Part shown: positions 57,433 to 60,172 of the stretch, in pieces
Numbering within the stretch: position 1 is the stretch's first letter
How the letters are laid out: every line of letters begins with the position of its first letter
Origin: Oscillatoriales cyanobacterium M59_W2019_021
GTDB taxonomy: Bacteria > Cyanobacteriota > Cyanobacteriia > Cyanobacteriales > Geitlerinemataceae
Direction: 5' to 3'
Assembly (NCBI GenBank): GCA_015295945.1
Contig: DVED01000207.1
Span: forward strand, 1-64,000
DNA: 64,000 bases
Position numbers and translations under genes: made by a program
Notes under the pieces: model-generated
What the model saw: the letters and a program-made list of their open reading frames with translations, nothing else
Told to the model about the DNA's origin: nothing
Database searches by the model: none

Positions 57433-58158
57433 ATGATGCTATCAACACTGCCTCGTGCCGATCGGGTTGTCTTACACGATATCAGTTGGCAACAGTTTGA
57501 AAACTTACTGGCAAATCTGGGGGAAAGTCGGTCTGCCAGAATTGCTTACGATCGGGGAACGTTGGAAATTATGACGTTTTTACCAGAACACGAATACTAC
57601 AAAGAAACCATTGGCGATGCGGTGAAAGATATTGCCGAAGTGTTGGAAGAAGACTATGAAAGCTTAAGATCGACCACTTGGAAGCGAAAACTCGAGAAAG
57701 CGGGGGTCGAACCAGACAATTGTTTTTACTTTCAAAACGAAGCCAAAATTCGCGGCAAACTTCAGTTCGATCTCGATCGAGATCCGCCCCCCGATTTAGT
57801 GTTGGAAATCGATCTGACCAGTAAGTCCCTCGATCGGTTTCCCATTTATGCGCGGTTGGGCGTTCCCGAAATTTGGTGTTACGATTCCGGCGAACTGAAA
57901 ATTTACCAACTGGCGGGAGAGGCTTATGTGGAAGTCGAAATGAGCTCGATTTTCCCCCAGCTTCCGGTGCGAGAACTGCCGGGACTCATCGATCGGTATC
58001 GGTCGGCAGGACGGCGATCGTTGCGGCAAGCCGTCCGAGAATGGGCGAGATCGAAATCTGGCAAGTCGTTCGGGAAAACAAACCATCTCCCCAAACCGGA
58101 CGATCGAAGTTTGCATCCTCTGGCAAAACAGCGAGGGAGAATACAAACTTCGGGCTAA
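57433..58158 (+). CDS. Uma2 family (DUF820) endonuclease-like protein
   Basis: A 241-residue PD-(D/E)XK-fold Uma2 protein, a family greatly expanded in cyanobacteria. The nuclease core is PPPDLVLEIDLTSKSLDRFP (Asp, Glu and Lys positions), preceded by IAYDRGTLEIMTFLPEHEYY and followed by YARLGVPEIWCYDSGELKIY. The last ~40 residues are basic and low complexity and may be a divergent extension. Two adjacent ATG codons (57433, 57436) can start it. It follows the antiporter by 29 bp and may be co-transcribed. Its cellular role is not established. Confidence 0.88.
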   Translation: MMLSTLPRADRVVLHDISWQQFENLLANLGESRSARIAYDRGTLEIMTFLPEHEYYKETIGDAVKDIAEVLEEDYESLRSTTWKRKLEKAGVEPDNCFYFQNEAKIRGKLQFDLDRDPPPDLVLEIDLTSKSLDRFPIYARLGVPEIWCYDSGELKIYQLAGEAYVEVEMSSIFPQLPVRELPGLIDRYRSAGRRSLRQAVREWARSKSGKSFGKTNHLPKPDDRSLHPLAKQRGRIQTSG

Positions 58159-58428: not shown

Positions 58429-59583
58429 CTAACTCCGAATCTGAACGGGCATGATCAAATGCGTCATTTTCGTACCGCTCAACGGCGTGAGTACCACCGG
58501 AGAGGTGGGGGTATTCAATTGGATTTGCACTTCGGAGGCGAGCAAATTTTTCAGCGATTCTGTGATGTATTTGACATTAAACGCCACTTCCAGGCTTTGT
58601 CCGGAAACTTGGGCGTTCATCGACTCTTTCCCGCTGCCGATATCGGCGGCTTCGGCGGAGAGGGAAAGCTGTTGATTTTCGCTGTCGATACTAAATTTAA
58701 CCACGTTATTTTTGCGATCGGCAAGAATGGCGATGCGTTCCAACGCTGAAATCAGTTCGCGGCGATCGACGTTGAGTTGATTCTCGAACTGTTGGGGGAT
58801 AAGCTGTCGGTAAGCTGGGTACGACCCTTCCAACGTGCGACTGGTGAGTCGCTGTCCGCCGCCGAGGTCGAAAGCAACCTGCCCTTCCTCGAATTGCAAC
58901 GAAATGAAATCGCCCTCAGCCCGCTTGCCAAACATCCGTTCCAACTCCCGCAAGGCATTCGCCGGAATCGTCACCGCGAACCCTTCGATGTCGCTGGGCG
59001 TCTCCTCTTCCCCCTCGGGAGCATTCGTCGCTTCCACCACGGCTAATCGGTGTCCGTCGGTTGCCGCAAACTCCAACCCATCCCCGGAAACTCGCAGGTG
59101 AACTCCCGTCAAAACTTGTTTGGTTTCGTCGCCACTGGTGGCAAATAGCGTTCCCCGCAATCCTTCTTCCAGGGAAGTCACGCTTAACCGGATGGCTTTG
59201 CCGCTTTCGATTTCCGGCAGTTCGGGAAACTCGGCGGCGTTCATCCCCCGAATTTGGTAAAACTGCCCGGTGGTTGCCGTCAGCGTCGTTAGGGATTCGT
59301 CGCCTTCGCTGTTGAGGGTAATGTCGCCGTTGGGAAGTTTGGCAACGATGTCGTTCAGTAATTTCGCGGGAAGGGCAATTTCTCCCCCGCCGTCAATTTG
59401 GGCGGGAAAACTGGTACGGATGCCCAAACTCAAATCGAAGGCGGTAATTTGAACGCTGCCCGTTTCGGCATCTGCCCGTAGGAGAACGTTTGCCAAAACC
59501 GGATGGGTGGGGCGAGAGGGAACGGCGTGGTGAGCCAGGGTGAGGTTGGCGTTCAGGTCGCTTTGGGTGCAAACGAGCTTCAT
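58429..59583 (-). CDS. dnaN: DNA polymerase III sliding clamp, beta subunit
   Basis: A 384-residue beta clamp that tethers the replicative polymerase. It has three similar domains: MKLVCTQSDLNANLTLAHHA opens domain 1, GTLFATSGDETKQVLTGVHL and FAATDGHRLAVVEA lie in domain 2, and the C-terminus FNVKYITESLKNLL ... VLTPLSGTKMTHLIMPVQIRS is domain 3 with the client-binding pocket. ATG start at 59583. The gene reads away from a cluster of DnaA boxes starting 170 bp upstream, as in cyanobacteria where oriC lies next to dnaN rather than dnaA. Confidence 0.97.
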   Translation of the reverse strand: MKLVCTQSDLNANLTLAHHAVPSRPTHPVLANVLLRADAETGSVQITAFDLSLGIRTSFPAQIDGGGEIALPAKLLNDIVAKLPNGDITLNSEGDESLTTLTATTGQFYQIRGMNAAEFPELPEIESGKAIRLSVTSLEEGLRGTLFATSGDETKQVLTGVHLRVSGDGLEFAATDGHRLAVVEATNAPEGEEETPSDIEGFAVTIPANALRELERMFGKRAEGDFISLQFEEGQVAFDLGGGQRLTSRTLEGSYPAYRQLIPQQFENQLNVDRRELISALERIAILADRKNNVVKFSIDSENQQLSLSAEAADIGSGKESMNAQVSGQSLEVAFNVKYITESLKNLLASEVQIQLNTPTSPVVLTPLSGTKMTHLIMPVQIRS

Positions 59584-59709
59584 AGGGCAAGGGCAAAGGA
59601 GAACGAAGCTTTACGAGGATAAAGCGATCGAGCCAGTTTCGTCAACTGCGAGTTTGACCGTCTGGCTGGGGAGTTATTCTCGCCTGCAAGCGCGATCGGC
59701 ACAAACTAC

Positions 59710-59925
59710 TATTCTATATATATTTTTATAAATAGTAGTAGTAGGGGCTGTGAAAACTGTGGAAAAAACTCGGTAAGTCTGTCTCTGGCTCAGCTTTAGC
59801 CTTCGTCAGGTTGTGGAAAACCTGTGGAAAATTAAGGCGACTTTTCCACAGAGTATTTATACTTATCGAAGATTTCCACGAGTTTGTGGGGGTTTTCCAC
59901 AACTATTCCCCAAGGTTTTCCACAG
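59710..59925. other. Probable chromosomal replication origin (oriC)
   Basis: Six exact DnaA boxes TTTTCCACA: minus-strand copies at 59758-59766, 59812-59820 and 59823-59831, plus-strand copies at 59842-59850, 59893-59901 and 59916-59924. Near-matches lie at 59749-59757 (TGTGAAAAC) and 59872-59880. To the left are an A+T-rich stretch (59711-59732), four TAG triplets (59733-59744) and GGGC (59745-59748). These correspond to a duplex-unwinding element, DnaA-trio and GC spacer. The location upstream of dnaN supports oriC. dnaA itself is not in the window. Confidence 0.85.
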
Positions 59926-60172
59926 TGTTTTGGGCGATCGAATTCATCAACTCGCGAATGGTTAATAAAATTTAACAATAAGGTGGGTTATGGGTCATTC
60001 GTGATGTGGGGTTGGGTGTTGGTTATTTGGGGATTTGCTAGTTGCTAGTTCGCTTTTTTCCCCTGCTCCCCCTGCCTTCAAGATCGGTGTTACCTTGAAA
60101 AGGATGAGTGGGTAGGGAGTACCACCGGAAGGAAACGCACTACTCATGACCGATTACCGATTACCCATTACT

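Follow-up and report, generated by a model that had tools for sequence, protein, structure and literature searches.

Positions 59706–59924 of the window, the whole 64,000-nucleotide stretch analysed here from the genome of a filamentous Oscillatoriales cyanobacterium, very probably form the chromosomal replication origin (oriC) and carry a canonical basal unwinding system (BUS). This assignment is read from sequence and comparison, and from it we infer DnaA binding, melting, helicase loading and use of the origin in the living cell. Six exact copies of the DnaA box TTTTCCACA lie within 167 bp (59758–59924) adjoining dnaN, three on the minus strand followed by three on the plus strand, as the initial annotation had described. 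The minus-strand boxes occupy 59758–59766 (the main BUS box, which starts 22 bp before the first DnaA-trio), 59812–59820 (offset −76 from that trio) and 59823–59831 (offset −87, 11 bp from the box at 59812), and the plus-strand boxes occupy 59842–59850 (inverted, offset −106), 59893–59901 (offset −157) and 59916–59924 (offset −180). Exact copies of TTTTCCACA number eight in the whole 64-kb window, these six included, whereas dinucleotide shuffles of the window average 0.8 and never exceed 3. The adjoining gene (58429–59583, minus strand), which reads away from the box array, encodes the 384-aa DNA polymerase III beta clamp (TIGR00663, E 6e-103; three DNA_pol3_beta Pfam domains), confirming the earlier placement of the array next to dnaN; a box cluster beside dnaN is also what the cyanobacterial rule for oriC calls for.

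Between the main box and dnaN, the remaining elements of the unwinding system follow one another closely. A trio-proximal variant box, GTTTTCACA (59749–59757, minus strand, two mismatches, offset −13), abuts the exact box and is followed by a G+C-rich spacer, GGGC (59745–59748), by (TAG)x4 (59733–59744), which from its sequence and class-wide conservation we read as four DnaA-trios, 3′-GAT-5′, on the plus strand, and by A+T-rich DNA (59711–59732), all at the positions given in the initial annotation. The A+T-rich DNA falls inside a predicted DNA unwinding element at 59707–59736; no other 30-bp stretch of the window is as unstable by nearest-neighbour energy (rank 1 of 63,970). Apart from this TAG run, nowhere in the window do TAG, CTA, GAT or ATC triplets form a run of three or more. 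The far end of the unwinding element carries CTACTA on the plus strand (59706–59711; minus strand 5′-TAGTAG-3′), two opposing triplets that are a possible second trio set. Read along the minus strand, the order is TTTTCCACA-GTTTTCACA-GCCC-CTACTACTACTA-TTTATAAAAATATATATA and then dnaN, the CTACTACTACTA block being four CTA triplets next to A+T-rich DNA on the dnaN side. The whole module had no second match in the window even when three mismatches were allowed, the window's genome has a single copy of the exact 11-bp box pair, and an Rfam search of the origin region returned no match.

Other features surround the array. Beside the inverted box and reading towards dnaN, AAGTATAAATACT (59852–59866, minus strand) resembles a TATAAA-type promoter element; a promoter scan made no call for this element, and we treat it as a lead only. 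Nostocaceae dnaN upstream regions show a similar TATAAT abutting an inverted DnaA box and reading towards dnaN. On the side away from dnaN the array is flanked by a gene for a TgpA-like transglutaminase. Two dispersed repeats (59981–60079 and 60104–60140) lie to the right of the origin and have dozens of copies across the genome; because the second stops just before the called start codon at 60146, the transglutaminase start may instead be at ~60173. A gene for an Uma2-family putative endonuclease (57433–58158; PF05685) adjoins dnaN.

Whether the box orientation matches that of Bacillus had been left open by the initial annotation. In B. subtilis the trios read 3′-GAT-5′ on the strand opposite the box motif. 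The same arrangement is found here: the exact box at 59758–59766 and the variant at 59749–59757, both on the minus strand, face the trios, and the opposite strand carries four perfect 3′-GAT-5′ trios where the BUS criteria ask for at least three with a central A. A 13-bp spacer separates the better box from the first trio, and published box-to-trio spacers peak at 10–13 bp (PMC8287927, also the source of the BUS consensus and criteria). Because incC in Bacillus loses its activity when the boxes are turned round (PMC6669920), orientation is a meaningful test; here orientation, 13-bp spacing and strand are all those of the Bacillus BUS, which settles the doubt. The further proposal that this origin follows the same unwinding logic, with opening directed towards dnaN, appears well founded given the arrangement, the 13-bp spacer and the class-wide recurrence described below.

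Comparison with characterized systems shows both likenesses and differences. Like the B. subtilis oriC BUS (boxes #6/#7 and DnaA-trios), the locus combines two adjacent boxes of the same orientation, a short G+C spacer, 3′-GAT-5′ trios opposite the box-motif strand and then A+T-rich DNA, beside dnaN. It differs in having four perfect GAT trios where those of Bacillus are degenerate, in its box consensus (TTTTCCACA here, TTATCCACA there), in the location of dnaA on another contig and in the opposing CTACTA at the far end. Genome G030, which we take to be Synechococcus elongatus PCC 6301, has the same box pair, GCCC spacer, CTACTACTACT run and 13-bp spacing, but its fourth triplet is CTG and its A+T-rich sequence is different. 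In vitro, the BUS of S. elongatus is unwound by that organism's DnaA, and unwinding requires both boxes and trios (PMC8287927), so the BUS mechanism is already known in cyanobacteria. S. elongatus cannot do without dnaA, and its GC skew is regular (PMC7198777). The oriC of Cyanothece ATCC 51142 likewise has dnaN-adjacent TTTTCCACA boxes, bound in vitro by DnaA domain IV, but only three boxes are described for it, and trios are not mentioned (PMC4674748).

The DnaA gene of the window's genome lies on contig G000:C197 (TIGR00362, E 2e-162), and its product has Walker A/B, the FTNDLISAIR single-strand-binding motif and the GGKDHTTVMYSC box-binding signature; as the BUS criteria require, a DnaA with the single-strand-binding motif is encoded in the same genome. 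DnaA would bind the conserved box array, and the abutting boxes at 59749–59766, by the trios, would dock a growing DnaA oligomer. ATP-DnaA would then extend onto the plus strand along the four 3′-GAT-5′ trios and stretch that strand, so that the unstable A+T-rich DNA at 59707–59736 would melt towards dnaN and helicase would be loaded there.

The arrangement recurs across the class. Our sample of dnaN-upstream regions comprised ~200 genomes and 80 named contigs, partly overlapping, and a BUS was called where a box was followed, after a spacer, by three near-perfect trios. A looser definition of trios (any three NAN) was dropped, since weak thresholds are often passed by boxes whose flanks have been shuffled; CTA runs that were perfect or nearly so served instead. 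BUS were found in 99/277 regions, all pointing at dnaN, as against 1/277 after shuffling, and the spacer is 13 bp in 80/99 BUS loci. Among 96 non-redundant origins, boxes recur at −200, −178, −156, −105 (inverted), −87, −76, −22 and −13 from the first trio, a map that all seven of the window's boxes fit, including the main box at −22 and the variant at −13. The −22 box is found in 84/96 BUS origins, and 76/96 other BUS origins have a box with at most one mismatch at −13. Over the 96 origins there are 72 counts of a box at −76 or −75, 59 at −87 or −86 and 59 of an inverted box at −104 to −106, with further recurrent offsets at −155 to −157 and −177 to −180. The dnaN-upstream regions of different cyanobacterial families, including that of S. 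elongatus (G030), share the box spacings of 19/11/54/9 bp together with trios, and relatives commonly have a G+C-rich spacer of ~4 bp between box and trios. The fixed box map (19/11/54/9/13 bp) is usable for annotating cyanobacterial origins, including those that have moved from dnaN.

Trios are scarce within the window's own order. They are present at dnaN in 3/54 dnaA-bearing genomes of the order versus 88/133 in the rest of the class (P = 3e-15, Fisher's exact test, kinship ignored). The three are the window's genome, Gloeocapsopsis (G036) and Kastovskya (G163); trios are present, too, in two of the named-contig set, Trichocoleus FACHB-40 and one Chroococcidiopsidaceae genome. Conservation of the TAG triplets in relatives, which the initial annotation had proposed as a check, gives a mixed outcome: it holds class-wide and fails in the nearest relatives, where the boxes stay. 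A genome-wide pattern search agrees with this scarcity, the residual matches in the order being chance matches, nearly all in coding sequence; because the window's proximal box is a variant, the pattern misses the window itself, and some false negatives are to be expected. Trio-like matches in six genomes (G304, G355, G351, G231, G363 and G135) were rejected because they fall within long reading frames and have no boxes around them, and one in G214 because it is isolated, with a single box. Order genomes that have at least three boxes and fail the trio test show no clear trio enrichment over shuffles; these are mostly Nostocaceae and members of family f6, and several Nostocaceae carry the scaffold just downstream of dnaA, not at dnaN.

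Within the window's family, nine relatives (G021, G176, G353, G386, G390, G391 and G395–G397) keep the box scaffold away from dnaN, with spacings of 11, 54 and 9 bp to within about one base (loci L347, L349 and L351–L357) and with the CTA triplets gone. At the three loci inspected (L347, L349 and L355, from G021, G390 and G391), the scaffold lies near a gene presumed from its sequence to encode a GNAT-type acetyltransferase. Since the scaffold is found elsewhere in the family and by dnaA in Nostocaceae, its absence at dnaN does not equal absence of an origin. In a DnaN tree, which serves as a rough guide only, the window is sister to all other sampled family members (family clade support 100/99); relocation and trio loss would therefore, most simply, have come after the window's lineage branched off.

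GC skew, suggested by the initial annotation as a further check, did not give the anticipated result. There is no minimum at the locus, and the local skew passes from plus to minus, opposite to the expected sign. No V-shape is seen in the window's own contig (89.8 kb, in an assembly of 212 contigs) or in the closest closed relative, which was sampled in 20 stretches of 20 kb and has irregular skew. Most cyanobacteria are irregular in GC skew (PMC7198777), so the missing minimum weighs little; skew being neutral in cyanobacteria, it also gives the origin no independent confirmation.

One alternative, which we consider unlikely, is that the array is a relic or a transcriptional array at which DnaA binds and controls dnaN expression, while replication starts elsewhere or independently of DnaA. 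Nostoc PCC 7120 and Synechocystis PCC 6803 are members of the window's order. DnaA is dispensable in both (PMC7198777), so an origin may look sound and still not be the one in use; such independence in this part of the cyanobacteria, the boxes without trios in many members of the order, the irregular skew of the closest closed genome and the TATAAA-like element beside a box would all accord with a relic. DnaA control of a dnaN promoter, if true, would account for boxes outliving trios. However, the window retains its trios, spacer and unstable stretch whole and in exact position, and because relaxed relatives have lost exactly these elements, their retention suggests selection for opening.

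It is also conceivable, and in our judgment very unlikely, that the locus is an oriC whose A+T-rich stretch alone serves for opening, in the manner of any unwinding element, with no role for the triplets. Family relatives do keep the scaffold and A+T-rich DNA, and Nostocaceae keep box pairs, in both cases without CTA triplets, yet unwinding by S. elongatus DnaA depends on trios (PMC8287927). Furthermore, deeply separated families agree in the type, number and strand of the triplets and in the 13-bp spacing. Slippage produces short triplet runs, but a small TAG microsatellite arisen by chance beside DnaA boxes is extremely improbable, as no other such run occurs in the 64 kb and the conservation of the 13-bp spacer, set against the shuffled control, already contradicts chance.

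Taking the locus as an oriC with a BUS, we also considered the triplets on its far side. TAGTAG occurs at the far end of the unwinding element in 7/96 BUS origins (1.8 expected), including those of the window, Gloeocapsopsis and Kastovskya, and a run of three [AT]AG triplets occurs there in 8/93 (0.4 expected); the next 42 bp beyond the far end hold no such run of three. Other purine-rich triplets are also somewhat enriched at the far end, so composition may play some part. It seems to us rather improbable that some origins, the window's included, have their unwinding element flanked by trios on both strands; if true, each strand would offer DnaA a landing site. Near-mirror BUS, with a back-facing box and with opposing triplets beyond the unwinding element, were observed at L293 (G070), L302 (G013), L301 (G078), L307 (G106) and L274 (G031). 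A strict genome-wide mirror-BUS pattern was found in 0/390 genomes, a weak negative because the pattern demands a TTTCCACA proximal box, absent in most mirror cases. The idea of opposing triplets or a mirror-image BUS is a lead.

Ohbayashi et al. reported that DnaA dependence has been lost repeatedly in this group, in which GC skew is irregular (PMC7198777). We find 17 order genomes without a DnaA gene, and the 11-bp box pair is present in 49/62 order genomes with dnaA versus 3/17 without (P = 6e-6, Fisher's exact test, kinship ignored). The grades seen among genomes are the full module, 54/9-spaced boxes without trios, the distal pair only, and nothing. The idea that DnaA loses its single-strand-binding motif where trios are lost was rejected, as the motif is conserved; with the motif intact in trio-less genomes, DnaA may still open DNA via degenerate or different elements. 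Two odd genomes, G135 and G363 (3.8–4.1 Mb, 1–2 contigs, 99% complete), belong to genus g11 of family f5, probably Nostocaceae. Searches with the DnaN protein, TIGR00663, PF02767 and TIGR00362 detected neither dnaA nor dnaN in them. The lack of a sliding clamp would be odd at such completeness, and stretches withheld from the searched sequence or a divergent clamp may account for it.

These grades tentatively suggest decay in a fixed order, in which DnaA-trios would be lost before the trio-proximal box pair, that pair before the distal boxes, and dnaA itself last; this order seems to follow from the grades among genomes, not from a dated tree. In the literature we found no paper tying loss of DnaA dependence to trio decay, although Pelliciari et al. 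(2021) remarked that trios would not be expected to survive where DnaA is unused (PMC8287927), and what appears to be new is the comparison showing graded loss of trios, boxes and dnaA across cyanobacteria. The finding bears on why many cyanobacteria live without DnaA and on how the switch arose. If the decay reading is true, the window's species, with its intact DnaA, would be a holdout in an order where the system has mostly been given up. Perfect trios in the sequence would then be enough to tell which species still require DnaA: trio-bearing members of the order, such as the window's species, Gloeocapsopsis and Kastovskya, would need it, and their trio-less sister genera would not.
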